From assembly GCF_002205635.1 (NCBI RefSeq), contig NZ_NISJ01000003.1, forward strand, positions 156,397 through 220,396: a DNA stretch of 64,000 nucleotides, written 5' to 3'. Source of the DNA: Sphingopyxis witflariensis (GTDB taxonomy: Bacteria > Pseudomonadota > Alphaproteobacteria > Sphingomonadales > Sphingomonadaceae). The notes under the pieces were generated by a model, which saw only the letters and a program-made list of their open reading frames with translations, searched no databases and had not been told where the DNA came from. A program made the position numbers and the translations under genes. Below, one piece after another: positions 41,020-54,800 of this stretch (position 1 is the stretch's first letter; each line of letters begins with the position of its first letter).

Positions 41020-42836
41020 CCGAAGACGCCGTGCATATACCAGCTCAAATCGCCGGTGCGGTCTTCGATCGCATCGCCGCGGCGGAACAGCCAGAAACGC
41101 TCGCCAGTCTCCGCCTCGACGCGAAAATAATCGCGCACCGCCCACATTTCGCGGGTCGTTCGCCACCACTCGCCATGAATGCGCTCGGGTCCATCGCCTG
41201 CGACGACGCGGTAGGACCGTCCGCGCCACGCAAAGCGGCGCGGCGGATGGTCGGGAAGCAGCGCGACGACGCCCGACAGGGCTTCGGGCCGCGCGAGCAT
41301 GCGGATCGGCCGCGGCCAAGCCGGCCAGCCGGAAGGCTGGGCGAGCGGGCCGGTACGGCCGATCGCGCGTTCGGGCACATCGCTTTCGCGGCCCTCGAGG
41401 CGGAACAGCGCGCCCTCTCCAGCGCGCCCCGCGAGCTGATCGACGAGCGGCGCAAGATCGGGGGCGCGCGGTCCGCTATCGAACCCCGTGCCGATCACCT
41501 CGGCGCCGAGGGGTTCGACCTGCGGCGCGGCAAGCGCCATCGCCTCGATCCCGAGCCCAGGCTCGATCCGGTCGATACGCAGCCTGAAGAGGCGCACGAG
41601 ATGCTTCGCGTCGCGGGTCGCGCGCGCGGTGCCGACCGTGACGAGCTGCTCGCGCGCATCGACACGCTCGCAGCGGAGAACCGCCGCGCGAAGGCCGAGC
41701 CCGCGCTCCCGGAGGTCGGCGACGAGATCGGCGACGAGATCCGAAATTACCTGTTCGATCGCCTCGGCGGTGGCGATCGGTTCGAGAAGCCGGCGCTCGG
41801 CGCACGGCATTTCGAAAGGGACGACGGGCACGATCGGCTCAGGCAGAAAGCCGCGCGCCTGGTCGAGCCGCTCGACCGCGCCGCGCCCGAGGCGCCGCGC
41901 GAGCGGCCCGCGCGGCATCGGGTAAAGGTCAGCGATCCGCTCGATTCCGAAACGCGCCGCCGACGCCAGCGCCTCGGGCGCGAGCCGGAGCGCGCGAAGC
42001 GGCAGCCCGGCCAGCGCCTCCCCCTCCCGCCCTTCCGGCAAGACCAAGGTCGCCGCGCCGCCAAAGCGCGCGAGCGCGTGCGCGGCGCCGGGCGTGCCAG
42101 CGATCGCGACGCACGCGGTGAAACCGAGACGCCGAACGAAGGATAGAAGCCGCGCGGCGAAGCGCGCCTCGCCGCCAAAGAGATGCGTCGTGCCGGTCAG
42201 ATCAAGCCATAGCCCGTCGCTGCCCGACACGGCGGCAGTCGGTGTCCAGTGGCGCACCGCATGCAAGGCGAGCCGATCCAGCCACGCCCGATCCGCCTCG
42301 GGCGCAGCCTCGTACACATCGAGATCGGTAACGAGCGCGCGTGCATGCGCCGCGGCCATGCCGGGCGCGAGTCCGAGATCGAGTGCGAGTGGACAGGCCG
42401 CGGTCACGACATCACGCTGACCCGTCCGAGCCACGAGGATGGTCGGGCGGGCGCCCCACAGGGGCAGCGGTGGCGGCGCGATGGACGCGCCGGGCGACGG
42501 GCATCCATCATCCGCCCGCGATAACCGAAAGACAGGCGCGGCCGCCTCGCTGCGCCGCCCCAGTTCGCGCATGGTCGGTTGCTGGTGCGCCGGACGCGCG
42601 TCGACAAGGTCGCGGTTCGGCGCGGCCGAAGCCGTGTCCCGCGCCCAACGAGCACCCGGACGCCAGCCGCCGCCGCGCGGCACCGAGCAGGCGCCCGGAT
42701 TGTCGTCGACGGGTTCGGGAAGGCGCGGGCCGAGCCGCGCGGGTTCAGGCGGCGTGCCCGAGCGCGAGATCGGCGCTGCCCGTCGCAACCGCTCGATCGC
42801 GAGTTGCGGCAGGAAGAGCGAGGCGACCCTGGTCAT
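41016..42836 (-). CDS. imuB: ImuB, Y-family polymerase-like mutasome subunit
   Basis: A 606-residue protein of the DinB-like ImuB family, which lacks polymerase activity and tethers the mutasome to the beta clamp. The polymerase-like part is visible ([16 protein letters not shown] start, [17 protein letters not shown]). At the place where active Y-family enzymes have two acidic residues it has LWLDLTG. An insertion of about 100 residues (positions 20 to 130) rich in Pro, Arg and Ala follows the first strand. It overlaps imuA by 92 bases in another frame and dnaE2 by ATGA. Confidence 0.93.
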
Positions 42837-48162: not shown

Positions 48163-48207
48163 GCTTGATATGTCAAGCATCAATCAAGCGCGCTTGCTCT
48201 ATCAAGC
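48163..48207. promoter_or_regulatory. Operator cluster of TCAAGC/GCTTGA half-sites
   Basis: Within 45 bases there are GCTTGA-TATG-TCAAGC, then CAAGCG-CGCTTG, then a further ATCAAGC. All are built from the same half-site in the gap between the divergent 47-residue gene and the XRE gene. This fits cooperative binding by the XRE repressor. Confidence 0.7.
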
Positions 48208-48254
48208 AAAAACCGTTAGAATTCGTCGATGCAACAGGGCAGTTTGGATTAATC

Positions 48255-48623
48255 GTGGTCGACGGTAATAAGCATGCGTCGACGCTAGGCGGCTACCTGG
48301 CGGCTGTGCGATCCGATCGTGGATTCTCTTTGCGACAGGTCGAAGAAATGACCGGCAAGGAGGTATCCAACGCGTATCTAAGCCAGCTTGAAAACGACAA
48401 GGTGAAGCAGCCGTCTCCCAACGTGCTTCATGCTCTTTCGGCGACTTATGATATCGACTATATCGGTCTGATGGAACGCGCCGGGTATTTGACGCCGCAA
48501 CAATCTTCTGACGCACCGAAGCGTCACGGCAGAGCAGCGACCTTTGCCGAGATTGATTTATCTTCGGACGAGGAAGCCGAGCTACTTCGCTTTCTCAAAT
48601 TCATGCGAAGCGAGAAGAAGTAG
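48255..48623 (+). CDS. XRE-family helix-turn-helix regulator
   Basis: A 122-residue regulator starting at GTG 48255. The HTH reads LGGYLAAVRSDRGFSLRQVEEMTGKEVSNAYLSQLENDKVKQPSP, a lambda-Cro/P22-C2 type fold. An acidic C-terminal tail follows. It is directly upstream of the ImmA/IrrE peptidase gene (3 bases) and downstream of the operator cluster. In such pairs the peptidase cleaves the repressor upon DNA damage or other signals, releasing the controlled genes. Confidence 0.9.
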   Translation: MVDGNKHASTLGGYLAAVRSDRGFSLRQVEEMTGKEVSNAYLSQLENDKVKQPSPNVLHALSATYDIDYIGLMERAGYLTPQQSSDAPKRHGRAATFAEIDLSSDEEAELLRFLKFMRSEKK

Positions 48624-48626
48624 GTA

Positions 48627-49517
48627 GTGCGGAAAGACGACAGCTCGCTGAGCCACGCCGAAAGGGAGTTTGTCGAGAGCCGCGCGAAGATGCTTCTTCA
48701 ACGGGCCGATGCTTGGGGCGTTGTCCCGGTCCCGATCGACGATTTGCTGAGCGCGGCCAATCTTAAGGTTGCACCGACAAGCATTTTCGACCCTCGCGCC
48801 ATTGCCGCTTACGCCATAGCAAAAGGCAAGCAGGCTGCGAATCTCGTCAAACAGGCCATCGGAAAAGTTCTGGGCATTCTGGATGCTCACGAAGAGGTCA
48901 TCCACATCGACGATACTGTGTTGGAATCGCGCCAGCGGTTTTTGAAGCTGCATGAAACCGGCCATTTCGAGCTCCCCCATCAACGCAAAATCTTTCGATT
49001 TTTTGAAGACAGCCAAGAAGAGCTAGATCCCTCAATCGCGGACAAGTTCGAGCGAGAAGCGAACAATTTTGCTCGGTTCGCGATCTTCAACGGCAATGCT
49101 TACGCCGAGAGAGCGGCGGATCTTCCGCTCTCCTTCTCGTCGGCCAAGAAGATGCAGCGCGGTTTCAAAGTCTCATTATATGCGGGTTTGCGCGAATATG
49201 CGCGGACGCATCGCCATGTTTGCATCGCGATGGCTATCGAGAAACCTGCCGTATGCCCGATAAATGGTTTGAGCGCGGAGATTCGCCGGATCGAAACCTC
49301 TCTTTCCTTTGAGCAACAATTTGGGCGACCACAGCTACCTACGATAACGAAGACCCATCCGCTTTGGCCGCTCGTTCCATTTGGCAAGGCGACAAGGCCA
49401 ACCACTATCCGGCTTACCGACCTGAATGGCGAGCACCACGAGTTCATTGGGGAAGCCTTGGATACCACCTATAATATTTTGCTGTTTGCATGTCCTACCG
49501 CGCTCTTCAAAAGCTGA
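48627..49517 (+). CDS. ImmA/IrrE family metallopeptidase
   Basis: A 296-residue zinc peptidase. The active site is KLHETGHF (His-Glu-x2-His) with the downstream Glu in FEREANNFARFAIF. GTG 48627 is used, three bases after the XRE stop. The C-terminal half (about residues 190-296) is an extension not needed for catalysis and may sense a signal or bind the partner. By analogy with ImmA-ImmR of ICEBs1 and IrrE-DdrO, it should cleave the XRE repressor. The partner gene and operator cluster support this. Confidence 0.92.
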   Translation: MRKDDSSLSHAEREFVESRAKMLLQRADAWGVVPVPIDDLLSAANLKVAPTSIFDPRAIAAYAIAKGKQAANLVKQAIGKVLGILDAHEEVIHIDDTVLESRQRFLKLHETGHFELPHQRKIFRFFEDSQEELDPSIADKFEREANNFARFAIFNGNAYAERAADLPLSFSSAKKMQRGFKVSLYAGLREYARTHRHVCIAMAIEKPAVCPINGLSAEIRRIETSLSFEQQFGRPQLPTITKTHPLWPLVPFGKATRPTTIRLTDLNGEHHEFIGEALDTTYNILLFACPTALFKS

Positions 49518-49629
49518 CGGGCGCTAACGACATGATCTGCGCGATCGCAACATGTCATACCGACAGAGCGTTTGGCACTCTCGGCAGCAGAGTGCCAAAA
49601 CAAGCTTGACGCAGGTGCCAACCTCTGTT

Positions 49630-49644
49630 GTTCTCCGTTCGTTC
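49630..49644. promoter_or_regulatory. LexA (SOS) box upstream of the TcmP gene
   Basis: GTTC-TCCGTTC-GTTC is an exact GTTC-N7-GTTC match 20 bases upstream of the TcmP start codon. Confidence 0.75.
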
Positions 49645-49664
49645 GAGAGAGATTGGAGAATCTG

Positions 49665-50600
49665 ATGGCTACTCTAACTGAGCAGGGGCATCGTTTTGGA
49701 GGTGTATGGACAGAGCTTAAGCTCGACGCCGTCCATTATTATCTCGGCTTCTTCACGAGGGTTTTGAGAACACTGCCGTTTGAATTGTGGTATATTGATG
49801 CCTTCGCTGGAACAGGAACTCGGGTTGAGATTCGCCAAGTCGGTGGCCTGCTCGAGGGGGCGCCCGTCGAACTCGCTTCGGAACAGCTTGCCGGGTCAGT
49901 AATGCGAGCACTGTCAGTGGACCCGCCCTTCACACGACACGTTTTCATCGAAGGTAATGCTGAGCGATTCCGCGCATTAGAGACGGTTCGCAGTCAATAC
50001 CCATTGAAACAGATCGAATGTCGGCACGGCGATGCCAATGCCGAGCTACGTGCAATTCTTTCCCGTCCTCCTTGGAACGCGCAAACTGGTGGCCAAGGAA
50101 ATCTTCGGGCGGTCGTATTCCTCGATCCATACGGGATGAATGTGGCGTGGGACACCCTCGAATTGCTGGCGGCTACCCGAGCAATCGATGTGTGGTATTT
50201 GTTCCCACTGCAGGCCGTGACGCGTCAACTGTCCGGTAAGCTCGATAGTATCGATCACTATAAACAAGACAGGTTGGACGACATCTTTGGCACCCCCAAC
50301 TGGCGGGAGGAGCTGTATGAAACTAAAGTCTTCACGGATTTGTTCGCCGAGACAATCAGCACTTCGAAGCGTAATGTCACCCAGGCGCAGATTGAAGAGT
50401 ATTCTCGCCAGCGGCTGGGTACGCTGTTTCGATACGTTTCCGAGCCGTTGCCGTTGATTGCGGACGGGCGTGGCCACCTCTTTTCACTGTTCTGCCTTTC
50501 AAACAGCGGCAGCGACAAGGCCATTGACCTTATAGAGAAAGGGGTACGGGCGACGCTGAAGAAATTCGGGTCGGCATCTCGTCATATGTCCGGCCGTTGA
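49665..50600 (+). CDS. tcmP: Three-Cys-motif partner protein TcmP
   Basis: A 311-residue protein of the TcmP family (TIGR04474), which occurs beside DUF5131 three-Cys-motif proteins. ATG 49665 follows TTGGAGAA; the frame upstream to 49572 contains the LexA box. Two motifs are reminiscent of Rossmann methyltransferases: YIDAFAGTGTR near residue 45 and VFLDPYGMNV near residue 165. The biochemical role is not established. It is convergent with the DUF5131 gene and shares 71 bases with it at the 3' ends. Confidence 0.88.
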   Translation: MATLTEQGHRFGGVWTELKLDAVHYYLGFFTRVLRTLPFELWYIDAFAGTGTRVEIRQVGGLLEGAPVELASEQLAGSVMRALSVDPPFTRHVFIEGNAERFRALETVRSQYPLKQIECRHGDANAELRAILSRPPWNAQTGGQGNLRAVVFLDPYGMNVAWDTLELLAATRAIDVWYLFPLQAVTRQLSGKLDSIDHYKQDRLDDIFGTPNWREELYETKVFTDLFAETISTSKRNVTQAQIEEYSRQRLGTLFRYVSEPLPLIADGRGHLFSLFCLSNSGSDKAIDLIEKGVRATLKKFGSASRHMSGR

Positions 50601-51312
50601 GAAGGCGGCCGGCAGCCTTTTTGTTACGGCCACCCCACTGCTTGAAAAAGAAGGCAGTTCCACTTTCGCGACACATTTCCTCGATCTCAATTACCCAGTC
50701 CTCAGGCATTGGGCGGGCGCGAGGACCGCTCTCGCCGCCGACGATAGCCCAGTCGATCTGACGCAAGTCAGCGTCGACCACGGAACCGATCAGAGGCTCA
50801 AAAGAAATAAAGCGCACTGCTGCCGGAGTGGCACGAAGGTAATCGATGCGTTTAAGCACCGCGCTGTCTTCAACGCTCGTTCCGATCCACACATTTTTCA
50901 AGATCGCAAATCTGGGTTGAGACAATAATTCTGCCATACGCTCGGGACGCTTAGTGAGAATTTGGTAAGTGTGCTGTGGCGTCTGTTTCATGACAGCCCA
51001 GACCTTAAAAATAAAATCTTCTTCCACGTCCGGATGGAATAAATCCGACATGGAATTGACAAATACAGTTCGAGGAGCACGCCAACTAAGGGGTGCCGAA
51101 AGCGATCGCTCGTCTTGTACGATTTTTCCAGTCCAGACGTACCGGTCACCGCTTTTGCGGGTCAACCCCTGATACTTTGGCATTCCCATTGACTCGAGGC
51201 GCGCAGCCATGCGCATGGCATAACAATTGGTGCAGCCTGCTGTAGCGACAGTACATCCCGCAACTGGATTCCAAGTGACGTCAGTCCACTCAATTGGTGT
51301 CAACTGCGCCAC
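50530..51312 (-). CDS. DUF5131 (phage Gp37/Gp68) three-Cys-motif protein
   Basis: A 260-residue protein of the Gp37/Gp68 family. The start MAQLTPIEWTDVTWNPVAGC is the family signature. Cys20, Cys27 and Cys30 (C-x6-C-x2-C) are arranged like an iron-sulphur site, and the later YQILTKRPERM, WIGTSVED, RFISFEPLIG and WAIVGGESGP blocks follow a radical-SAM-like barrel. Function is unknown. Its stop region overlaps the 3' end of tcmP on the other strand, and an exact LexA box lies 18 bases upstream of the start. Confidence 0.92.
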   Translation of the reverse strand: MAQLTPIEWTDVTWNPVAGCTVATAGCTNCYAMRMAARLESMGMPKYQGLTRKSGDRYVWTGKIVQDERSLSAPLSWRAPRTVFVNSMSDLFHPDVEEDFIFKVWAVMKQTPQHTYQILTKRPERMAELLSQPRFAILKNVWIGTSVEDSAVLKRIDYLRATPAAVRFISFEPLIGSVVDADLRQIDWAIVGGESGPRARPMPEDWVIEIEEMCRESGTAFFFKQWGGRNKKAAGRLLNGRTYDEMPTRISSASPVPLSL

Positions 51313-51444: not shown

Positions 51445-51645
51445 TCAGCCTCTTCGGGATGCGCCCGGAACCTGAAAAATCCCATTAGCCGCCACGCGCC
51501 GGGTTGCGTCGCGACGTATTTGGAGCGTCGCGGCGTCTACAAAGGGTGCAATGTGGTTGGACGAACTTCGCGGACGCAGTTCCTGCTGACGAGTGTTGCC
51601 GGAGAGGTCGAGGTCGAGTTGCGGTCCATCGCTACGCTTGCTCAT
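51445..51645 (-). CDS. 66-residue protein coupled to the dCTP deaminase
   Basis: A small protein starting by ATGA overlap with the avcD stop. The N-terminal part is polar with an acidic-hydrophobic repeat (GPQLDLDLSG), and the C-terminal half is a likely helix (AATLQIRRDATRRVAANGIF). It is not recognised. The tight coupling suggests a partner or regulator of the deaminase. Confidence 0.7.
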   Translation of the reverse strand: MSKRSDGPQLDLDLSGNTRQQELRPRSSSNHIAPFVDAATLQIRRDATRRVAANGIFQVPGASRRG

Positions 51646-53225
51646 TGATTGGCTCCTGGCTGTGTCAATTGGTCATGTTCCTTGGCGGCGACTTCAACGA
51701 TGATCTTGTCTTCATATTCCCGCCTCGCGTCCAGAGGCACCCGGAACACGGGAAGTGCCTCCTTACGGGGAGTACGAAAGAGGTATCCTTTCTGCTTCCT
51801 GTCGCCTTTCGGACGGAAAAGCTTCACATAGTTCGACGGAGCGACACCGTTGAACTGTCGAAACACCACCATGTTTCTAGCGTCTGGGAGCTCACTGATC
51901 ACATCGCTGTGCAGTTCGATAGCAAGACTTTTGAGGTATGGCTCAATGTAGACGACCTCCCTGATTCCCGACGCGACGATGTGTCGCGCACAATTATGGC
52001 ATGGATATGTGTTTGTGTAGAGCGTTGCGCCGACCAGAGAATGTTTTCCTTCTCTCGCCACCGAGAGGATGGCTTCCATCTCCGCATGGATGGAGCGCGA
52101 AAACTCAATTAGCGCGTTGATGTCAGTGCTGCCAATTGCGTCGCGAACGGCCGATCGTTTACCTGGCTTGATCTGACCAGATTCAGCCACCGCAATCGCG
52201 ACTTTGTCCATGAGCCCATGACGCCGCACCTCATTGTGGCATTTTTTACCGCCCCAATTGTAGCACCGATGATCCCTGTTGACGATAACCTTCGCTTCGT
52301 CGTCAAAGGTCTCTCGATCCTCTTCTGTATACAAGCTACCCCCGAACTTCGGGACATCGTTCCATCCGACCGCGATCAGTTCGCCTCCGTCAGATACGAT
52401 GCTGACGCCGACCTGCCGTGACATGCAGGCGGAGTTGGCCGCGGCCGCATTTGCTTTGTACATCGCTGATTCCGCGCGCGTTGGCGTATGGATGGCTGTA
52501 TCGAAGACGATGTCGAGAAATCTTCTGAGACTTGAGTCGAGATCTTCTGGCCGGCGGTCGTTGCAGACGAAGAAGTCGGAATGAACAAACAGCTTGCGTG
52601 TAGCCTGACCGAACGTTGCCAACTCGCCCTGATCGCGTGCCATCACCTTCGCTCTCTCGGCTTCAGGATAGTCAAGATCCTTCAGCCGTTCGTCGCGCAA
52701 TTTGTCGGGCGCAAAGACACCGACCACACAGAGAGTCTCACGGTACACGTCCCGTAAAAGCTCGAGCTCCTCCAAACTTTTCAGTGAATCTATGATGTAG
52801 GCACGCCGCCCCGGCAGTTCATTCTCGCCATCATATCCGTGATGAGCCGTTCGGAAGCCACGAATCTTTTCAAAAAGCTTCTCAATAAGATAATTGTTTC
52901 CGAACCTCTCACGCAGCCTGTTTCCAGCGTCCTGCATCTCAGAAATGTAGGTTGCCGTTTTTGCGTTCTGGGGCGCCGTAATTCCGACCAACCCGCTCTG
53001 AGCGCGGATTACATCGCTTGGCTTCATGACTGGCGCGACATCGTAGCCAAATTCCTGTTCCAAGACGGTATGAAGAATGTTCGCAGCCGTGGTGACGCCC
53101 GATCCAACGGGACCAACGAGCGCGATGACCAATTCTTGAGAAAGACGCTCTTTGATTTCGCGTGCAACGCCGTCCTTGGCAACGTCATTGTCGTTGACCA
53201 ACTGAAATGGCTGCGGTGTCTGCAT
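51642..53225 (-). CDS. avcD: Anti-phage dCTP/dCMP deaminase (AvcD type)
   Basis: A 527-residue two-domain protein matching AvcD, the defence deaminase that depletes cytosine deoxynucleotides during phage infection. The N-terminal kinase-like domain has a P-loop GPVGSGVTTAANIL (residues 38-51). The C-terminal deaminase domain has SIHAEMEAIL (His380, catalytic Glu382) and YPCHNCARHI (Cys409, Cys412) as the zinc site, with a further Cys/His cluster near residues 320-330 (HRCYNWGGKKCHNE). The ATG 53225 follows GGGGGGAAC. Downstream it is coupled to a 66-residue protein, and upstream are a LexA box and a hairpin. In Vibrio the inhibitor AvcI is an RNA encoded just upstream. Confidence 0.9.
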   Translation of the reverse strand: MQTPQPFQLVNDNDVAKDGVAREIKERLSQELVIALVGPVGSGVTTAANILHTVLEQEFGYDVAPVMKPSDVIRAQSGLVGITAPQNAKTATYISEMQDAGNRLRERFGNNYLIEKLFEKIRGFRTAHHGYDGENELPGRRAYIIDSLKSLEELELLRDVYRETLCVVGVFAPDKLRDERLKDLDYPEAERAKVMARDQGELATFGQATRKLFVHSDFFVCNDRRPEDLDSSLRRFLDIVFDTAIHTPTRAESAMYKANAAAANSACMSRQVGVSIVSDGGELIAVGWNDVPKFGGSLYTEEDRETFDDEAKVIVNRDHRCYNWGGKKCHNEVRRHGLMDKVAIAVAESGQIKPGKRSAVRDAIGSTDINALIEFSRSIHAEMEAILSVAREGKHSLVGATLYTNTYPCHNCARHIVASGIREVVYIEPYLKSLAIELHSDVISELPDARNMVVFRQFNGVAPSNYVKLFRPKGDRKQKGYLFRTPRKEALPVFRVPLDARREYEDKIIVEVAAKEHDQLTQPGANQ

Positions 53226-53470: not shown

Positions 53471-54400
53471 CTATCCTGCGGCGCGTGCCGTCTCCTCTAG
53501 CTGCGCAATACGCTCGCTGCAGATGCTCTCCACAATCGCGGCGAGAGCCTCGACGCGGGCGCCGAGCCAAGTCAGTTCGTCTTCAGAAATCCGATAATGT
53601 TTCGAATATCGGGCCTTGATGTAGGCTTCTTTCAGCTTCTCGAAGCGCGACCGGTCAGCCTTCGTCTCGCGCGGCCAAGCGACGATCAGCCGCGTATCGA
53701 GCCGCTCTGCCTGCGTCCTCAAGAACGCCAGATTATGGACGTGCGGCGTGTAAAATGAACAGACTAGCAAAGCGCAGTGGTAATAGCTTTCAACCGACTG
53801 ATGCAGAAGAAACGCGGCCTTTTTGGTCCATCCGCGCTGCCTTGCGAATGATGCTGTTTCGAAAAACTCCCCGCCGCTCGGATACCACCCGTCGAAATAT
53901 TCCCGCGCCATTTCCAGCGCCGCATGCGGCGTTTTCGGCTGCGGCTCGGGCAATTCATCGTCGACCGCCTGATAAATGGCGATCCCGTCGCACGCGACGT
54001 CCATGAAGAAATAGCGCCCCTGCGACAGCCCGGAATTCACCTCGCCGGTGCTATGCACGATGAAGTTTACCGGCGTGCGCAGCGTCTTCGTGACCGACAG
54101 CTCGCGGATCAGCCGGTCGTCGAGCTTCGACCAATATTCGACGCGATCGGTCAGCCTGTCGTCGTTGACGACAATCAACAGGTCATAGTCCGACTGGTAG
54201 CCCTTGGCGGTGTGCGGCTCATCGACCCATCCGCCGCGCGCATAGCTGCCGTAGAGGATGATCTTGGAGATGCGCCCCTTGCGCTTCCAGTCCTGCGTCG
54301 CGAGCGCGAGCGCATCCTCGAATTCTTCGAAGACGATCTGGACGATGCGTTCGAGTTCGCGCTGTTTGTGCGGGGGGAGATGATCGAGACTGCTGCGCAT
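53471..54400 (-). CDS. Fused MNT-type nucleotidyltransferase and HEPN protein
   Basis: A 309-residue protein. Residues about 10-110 form a minimal nucleotidyltransferase with GSYARGGW and the acidic SDYDLLIVV. The C-terminal half is HEPN-like: helices with FLLHQSVESYYHCALLV and KARYSKHYRIS. In MNT-HEPN toxin-antitoxin pairs the MNT enzyme AMPylates and silences the HEPN RNase; here both are in one chain. ATG 54400 is chosen, since the longer frame overlaps the DUF736 gene. It sits among ICE maintenance genes, so it may serve stability or defence. Confidence 0.85.
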   Translation of the reverse strand: MRSSLDHLPPHKQRELERIVQIVFEEFEDALALATQDWKRKGRISKIILYGSYARGGWVDEPHTAKGYQSDYDLLIVVNDDRLTDRVEYWSKLDDRLIRELSVTKTLRTPVNFIVHSTGEVNSGLSQGRYFFMDVACDGIAIYQAVDDELPEPQPKTPHAALEMAREYFDGWYPSGGEFFETASFARQRGWTKKAAFLLHQSVESYYHCALLVCSFYTPHVHNLAFLRTQAERLDTRLIVAWPRETKADRSRFEKLKEAYIKARYSKHYRISEDELTWLGARVEALAAIVESICSERIAQLEETARAAG

Positions 54401-54476
54401 TGCGGTCACCCTAACAAGGTGGCGACACCCTTGCACGCCGAGATTGAACCAGGCGCCAGGATGCCGCCGACGGCGG

Positions 54477-54800
54477 TCAATCTGCGGGATTCCACAGCAG
54501 CGCATAAACGTCGGGATTGTCCTGTCCTGCCGCCCGGCCAAGGTTGGCATAGATGCGGCGCGGCCCGAACTCGGGCGCTTCGAGGGTCAAGGATACATAG
54601 AGATTGCCCGACGCTTCGCTACGGCGCAGCCACCCGGCGCCGCATTCGACGCCGTTCGACCAGACGCGATAGTCCGGCTGGACTTCGCCGCTCTTGCTCG
54701 GGTTGGGGCGGATTTCGATGGGGACGCGGATCGAGATCGTCGAGAGCTGGCCCACAAAGCCCTTCTCGTTCGTTCCGCTGACAAGACCGATTGCGGCCAT
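54477..54800 (-). CDS. DUF736 family protein
   Basis: A 107-residue protein of the DUF736 family, small beta-rich proteins found in ICE and plasmid backbones. The start MAAIGLVSGTNEKGFVGQLSTI and the pattern WLRRSEASGNLYVSLTLEAP are typical, ending DVYALLWNP. A second DUF736 start is fused to trbG at 37624. Only one complete DUF736 remains in the island. Confidence 0.88.
   Translation of the reverse strand: MAAIGLVSGTNEKGFVGQLSTISIRVPIEIRPNPSKSGEVQPDYRVWSNGVECGAGWLRRSEASGNLYVSLTLEAPEFGPRRIYANLGRAAGQDNPDVYALLWNPAD

Follow-up and report, generated by a model that had tools for sequence, protein, structure and literature searches.

A small protein with a putative DnaN-binding motif is encoded in overlap with an AvcD-type deaminase gene in Sphingopyxis witflariensis

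AvcD systems have been described as an enzyme plus an RNA. AvcID consists of the AvcD deaminase and the RNA inhibitor AvcI, and is a type III toxin-antitoxin system. In Caulobacter, the toxin SocB binds the clamp and has SocA and ClpXP as its partners. AvcD is restrained by its neighbouring gene, the RNA AvcI (PMC10511110). For binding to the beta-sliding clamp (DnaN), another study gives the consensus QL(S/D)LF and a six-residue form, with QLSLPL in the disordered N-terminus of Hda and QVELEF in PolIII alpha (PMC11139829). Going by titles and abstract openings, searches of the literature on the clamp together with anti-phage deaminases, on deaminase defence and on AvcID/DcdV brought up no partner of the kind reported below (PMC10511110, PMC12409362); this scope does not extend to the two 2022 papers that founded the field.

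Our analysis started from a window of 64,000 nucleotides of S. witflariensis DNA (contig NZ_NISJ01000003.1). On its minus strand, at 51642..53225, lies a gene for a 527-aa protein, whose residues 31–477 match the NF041025 model "anti-phage dCTP deaminase" with 430.1 bits against a cut-off of 400, and which scores 501 bits with the PADLOC dCTPase model. An earlier sequence-only reading had named this gene an anti-phage deaminase, and with 430 bits over a cut-off of 400 that identity was correct. The protein has a P-loop-type N-terminal part and a CDA-type deaminase part (HAE ... PCHNC). In 10 aligned rows, H380, A381, E382, P408, C409 and C412 are invariant, and so are G38, P39, S42 and G43 of the GPVGSG at 38–43, which is of the P-loop type (GxxxSG). 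Judged by cut-off and motifs, the enzyme is AvcD-type, while phage defence by depletion of dCTP/dCMP is inferred. The deaminase of AvcID belongs to the same family (NF041025, whose cut-off the window enzyme passes) and has the same P-loop plus deaminase layout. The deaminase of Novosphingobium sp. MD-1 (locus L009) is 88% identical to that of the window.

The deaminase gene is followed on the minus strand by a 66-codon frame at 51445..51645, with the product MSKRSDGPQLDLDL...GIFQVPGASRRG, whose ATG is at 51645..51643 and whose stop runs through 51445. This ATG overlaps the deaminase stop TGA (51644..51642, minus strand) to form ATGA, a junction which the sequence-only reading had given without a strand and which we confirmed on the minus strand. 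A Shine-Dalgarno-like AGGAG (51653..51657, minus strand) stands 7 nt before the partner ATG, within the end of the deaminase gene. The 66-residue product, which had been left unrecognised before, has no family match in Pfam, PADLOC or NCBIfam. Its ortholog in MD-1 is of equal length and has the same ATGA overlap. Between the two genes the differences by codon position are 15/15/38, 38 of the 68 being on third positions, and the NG86 estimates are dN 0.25 and dS 2.8 (dS saturated); the other two reading frames of the region have no such third-position pattern. At the protein level both ends are kept and the middle has drifted. On the strength of the coding signature, the same length and overlap in MD-1 and the Shine-Dalgarno-like site, this frame is judged from its sequence to be a real, conserved gene. 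The first 39 nt of the gene (51607-51645, minus strand) are identical to those of MD-1, with many silent changes beyond, and perhaps reflect a further constraint at the coupling site.

We then compared this arrangement with other deaminase loci. One scan of genome contigs gave 15 loci. Relatives gave 7 in 148 genomes, and further draws gave 15 in 396 of the order, 13 in 398 of the phylum and 15 in 385 of the class; each count includes the window's own genome, and the draws overlap one another. Viral contigs gave 39 loci, some weakly related. Dropped before the counts were a locus whose contig ends inside the gene (L020), two with too little downstream DNA (L061 and L065), and those with a deaminase score under 200 bits (L067–L073). 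A redundancy filter at 90% identity reduced 80 loci to 71; later draws were not filtered, and L113 equals L046.

In the section of the deaminase tree that holds the window, 21 of the 22 deaminases are followed by a short frame laid out in the same way, by labels which we set ourselves. The frame therefore survived the outcome that the sequence-only reading had named as its refutation, namely the lack of a conserved short frame after avcD homologues. Relative to the deaminase stop, the partners of this clade start at −50 to +30 nt, many with a Shine-Dalgarno-like sequence. The genera with partners include Novosphingobium, Sphingorhabdus, Chenggangzhangella, Mesorhizobium, Devosia, Bosea, Paracoccus, Tabrizicola, Pseudooceanicola and Acetobacter. 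At the Bosea lathyri locus (L015, about 4100), the deaminase gene has one in-frame stop near its start and the partner frame is open.

Single-protein searches with the small partner gave only noise in 98 other genomes (E 0.03 or worse) and no match in plasmids; there was no PDB match, and PHROGs and Pfam gave only single weak matches. The alignment of small partners was too variable for a collection-wide scan. In the 385 class genomes, a profile of the small protein had strong matches only in the window's own genome and in G448, both adjoining a deaminase, and two weak ones, L033 and L034, with no deaminase found by tblastn in their 3.1 kb. This profile is insensitive, as it missed the partners of L128 and L129 in the same 385-genome set. 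Viral scans with the deaminases of L044 and L038 returned no new places.

Codons 9–14 of the partner gene (51604..51621, minus strand) encode QLDLDL, a putative beta-clamp-binding hexapeptide, which fits the clamp-binding consensus in its QL(S/D)LF or six-residue form (PMC11139829). We aligned 28 partners, some of them only 12% identical to the window protein; the rows are related and hence not independent. The alignment omits L041 (labelled type 1, motif absent) and L050 (QLDLDF present), and L040 was trimmed to an inner ATG. The partners share an N-terminal QLxLx(F/L), in which Gln9 is found in 27/28, position 10 is hydrophobic in 26/28, position 11 is S, D or E in 21/28, and positions 12 and 14, the fourth and sixth of the hexapeptide, are hydrophobic in 28/28, one Cys counted. 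The Gln is the sole near-invariant column besides Met1; the L022 partner reads VFVFEM, without it.

The motif was counted by a fixed rule in 50 coupled ORFs, with 19 other loci lacking an ORF and 2 lying on too short a contig. The strict form was present in 25 of the 50 (0.5 expected from shuffles) and the broad form in 30 (2.4 expected). Among other ORFs of 50–200 aa in the same DNA, the strict form occurred in 2 and the broad form in 27 of 1490, and 1 of 324 long ORFs had the strict form. Because the rule had been drawn up after the first loci were seen, two hold-outs were run. In the first, where an ORF was missing at 4 of the 11 loci (one of the four duplicating an earlier locus), the strict form was found in 0/7 and the broad form in 1/7. 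In the second, the values were 1/13 (0.08 expected) and 4/13 (0.35 expected). The hold-out tests are thus weaker than the discovery set. Their loci were mostly from other clades, and the limit to the first 60 residues and a Y at position 6 lost some matches. The only new window-type loci among them, L128 (QIPMLL) and L129 (QFDLNL), were both broad-positive. With a looser pattern, 25 of 28 in the small family without the window had the motif, against 3.1 expected.

DnaN is present in the host genome, at C35:80005-81114. The host Hda-like protein, whose match is below the curated cut-off (79.7 vs 194.8 bits), carries QIALPL within a few residues of its probable Met; no clamp-type motif was found in the host DinB frame or in one ImuB-like frame (L108). 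None of the deaminases of the checked loci has the strict motif itself, and the broad pattern occurs in the last 60 residues of two, that of L038, which ends in QPALF plus two residues, and the weakly related one of L068. In Hda as in the window partner, the N-terminus is short and unfolded and carries QLxLxL/F near Met1. Hda continues into an AAA+ domain, whereas in the window partner a linker and a single predicted helix are all that follows. We consider it likely that the motif binds DnaN, an inference for which there are no binding data.

A second kind of coupled protein, of 153–202 aa (one frame of 463 aa), follows 17 deaminases of another clade. It has a Rossmann-like pattern, IxDLRxxPRFD, with a weak DUF488 resemblance in 2/17 members (best E 0.22) and one chance-level match in PDB; an AlphaFold2 model of it, made from 3 rows, was of low quality (mean pLDDT 47.9). 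Comparison with the small family by hhalign gave a probability of 1.2%, the sole aligned columns being the motif, and by sequence the two families appear unrelated. The clamp-type motif was present in 16 of the 17 by a loose pattern (3.3 expected), L134 being the exception, at a near-fixed place 12–17 residues before the same landmark. It includes an exact QLSLF (Pseudosulfitobacter) and QLDLF, as well as QALLF, QGMLF, QGLLF and QPLLF. In L132 (3035-4423), this partner lies within the 463-aa frame, possibly fused to another domain. A third kind, of 51–72 aa, is probably helical, with a W-x-x-W pattern in several members, and was found downstream of the deaminase in L028, L029, L081, L083–L085, L098, L135 and L137–L140. 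The same loose pattern found the clamp motif in 0/12 of these.

The deaminase tree had 93 rows and four partner labels, and its root was not inferred. The labels were set by us from partner sequence and place without a blind rule, and "none" includes loci with an ORF judged spurious (L045, L099 and L114 in the 18-row AvcI-type set). Partner kind follows this tree, with 9 label changes against 48.1 when shuffled (L050 relabelled), and 8 against 47.9 before. The window clade comprised 21 type-1 rows and one long-branch row; L060, labelled "none", is on a very long branch. The second type-1 clade was consistent in 8/9 rows and the type-2 clade in 17/18. The partners of the window clade align with those of the second type-1 clade, in the same small family, at 90% hhalign probability.

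In the set that holds the deaminases from plasmids of ETEC (p58), Klebsiella, E. coli (IncI) and Vibrio, 17 of 18 rows had no downstream frame that we accepted, 14 being without an ORF by the coupled-frame rule and 3 having motif-less ORFs judged spurious. This is where AvcID differs from the window clade with its protein partner. Use of AvcI throughout the set is presumed by extension from the published systems of ETEC and Vibrio, without AvcI having been traced in these loci. Near the base of the set, L050 has a type-1 partner (QLDLDF) 156 nt downstream of the deaminase stop, uncoupled. The ETEC p58 set lies within one starred 67-row set together with both motif-bearing kinds, so the RNA inhibitor may have taken over with the loss of a protein partner, or the change may have gone the other way, on what is an unrooted tree.

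Upstream of the deaminase gene, the 350 nt have no similarity between the window and MD-1, and those of the window have no Rfam match (whether AvcI has a family in Rfam was not checked). Pairs from the AvcI clade, with deaminases 50–61% identical, had no upstream similarity either, so the absence of an AvcI-like RNA before the window deaminase, while likely, is not demonstrated. In a near-identical pair, L016/L017, the upstream DNA was kept. With this control uninformative, we only lean towards the partner replacing AvcI rather than adding to it.

The AlphaFold2 model of the partner, a low-information model built on 14 rows, had a pTM of 0.34. Residues 1–30 had pLDDT 58–65, and the chain was unstructured before residue 38. 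The sole secondary structure was a C-terminal helix at codons 38–54 (51484..51534, minus strand), with block pLDDT up to 87; its docking to the deaminase is inferred. The motif would thus lie in an accessible, unfolded stretch, and the model fits a partner made of two short binding pieces on a flexible linker.

In our preferred reading, to which we give a probability of roughly 0.6, the partner is a clamp-docking adaptor through which the deaminase is recruited to replication forks or gated there. It starts from the observed gene, its start-stop overlap and conservation, the motif in two unrelated families and its absence in the third kind; binding to DnaN and to the deaminase, and the direction of control, are inferred. 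The small, mostly unfolded adaptor would be made together with the deaminase through translational coupling. Its N-terminal QLDLDL would occupy the peptide pocket of host DnaN in the manner of the Hda N-terminus, and the variable linker would lead to a hydrophobic VV-x-F-type segment and the C-terminal helix, both presumed to bind the deaminase. With the motif on DnaN and the C-terminal part on the deaminase, the complex would couple the enzyme to clamps on replicating DNA. The most likely use would be control of place and time. The deaminase could be recruited or switched on where clamps pile up in phage replication, or held back there until infection. The partner would stand where AvcID uses the RNA AvcI.

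In the main rival, the small protein is a plain type II-like antitoxin and QLxLxF is a strand that docks to the deaminase, the clamp being uninvolved. The partner sits where a toxin's partner would, and the known AvcD is checked by a neighbouring RNA, AvcI (PMC10511110). Both motif-bearing families go with related deaminases, and a groove shared by these enzymes could explain the motif. But the motif fits the clamp consensus in detail, down to the S/D/E at its third position in 21 of 28, and both five- and six-residue forms occur within the second family. Nor does any known antitoxin family match the window protein; among the 28 partners there were only single weak matches in single members, one of them to Unstab_antitox (E 0.072). 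We therefore regard the antitoxin explanation as unlikely, without excluding it.

Far less probable is that the partner binds DnaN to act on replication itself, as SocB does, with the deaminase as a parallel second effector. SocB is a small alphaproteobacterial protein working through DnaN, as we propose for the window partner. It pairs with SocA and ClpXP, whereas the window partner goes with a deaminase; no sequence comparison was made. By itself, a clamp-binding motif is able to poison replication, as overexpressed MGPRQLDLF inhibits growth of E. coli (PMC11139829). However, the coupling and the tracking with the deaminase clade argue for one complex, and the only two strong profile matches in the 385 class genomes, by the insensitive profile, adjoin a deaminase. 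A chance frame without product, which the shortness of the frame and its lack of a family match might suggest, is hardly credible given the third-position excess, the conserved length and overlap, the Shine-Dalgarno-like site and the homologues in many genera.

If the partner is indeed a clamp-docking adaptor, a defence by nucleotide depletion would have the replication machine as its address or its sensor. A coupled protein with a clamp-type motif also bears on the means by which deaminases that have no recognised AvcI are restrained and activated. Defence catalogues would then miss a component, since PADLOC and NCBIfam model the deaminase and not the window's partner. A wider proposal, which we hold only tentatively, is that many AvcD-type deaminases, instead of depleting dCTP as free enzymes, are tied to the replisome, with partners of at least two unrelated folds docking them to the host clamp. 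Either dCTP would be converted to dUTP at the fork, or the state of the clamp would serve as a phage sensor, and control by AvcI would be a special case, that of a single clade from which the partner was lost.

Several other genes lie near the deaminase. Genes for a TcmP three-Cys-motif partner (49572-50600, plus strand) and a DUF5131 protein (50530-51312, minus strand) converge with overlapping ends, and are the PADLOC candidate PDC-M41. We rejected them as part of the deaminase system, as both adjoin the deaminase only in the window genome, MD-1 and L074 among the fetched loci, which have short flanks; the partner sequence of L074 is the same as that of MD-1. DUF5131 alone adjoins the deaminase in L063 too. 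Just upstream of the deaminase, on the same strand, 53471-54550 encodes Pol-beta nucleotidyltransferase and HEPN domains in one protein. Farther away, at 41532-41804 (minus strand), a match to a Y-family polymerase C-terminal domain lies in a 692-aa open frame and is ImuB-like. At 48165-49517 (plus strand), an HTH regulator is followed by an ImmA/IrrE-type peptidase, resembling capH/capP, and in Rhizobium CIAT894 (L096) an HTH and ImmA/IrrE pair stands directly before the deaminase.
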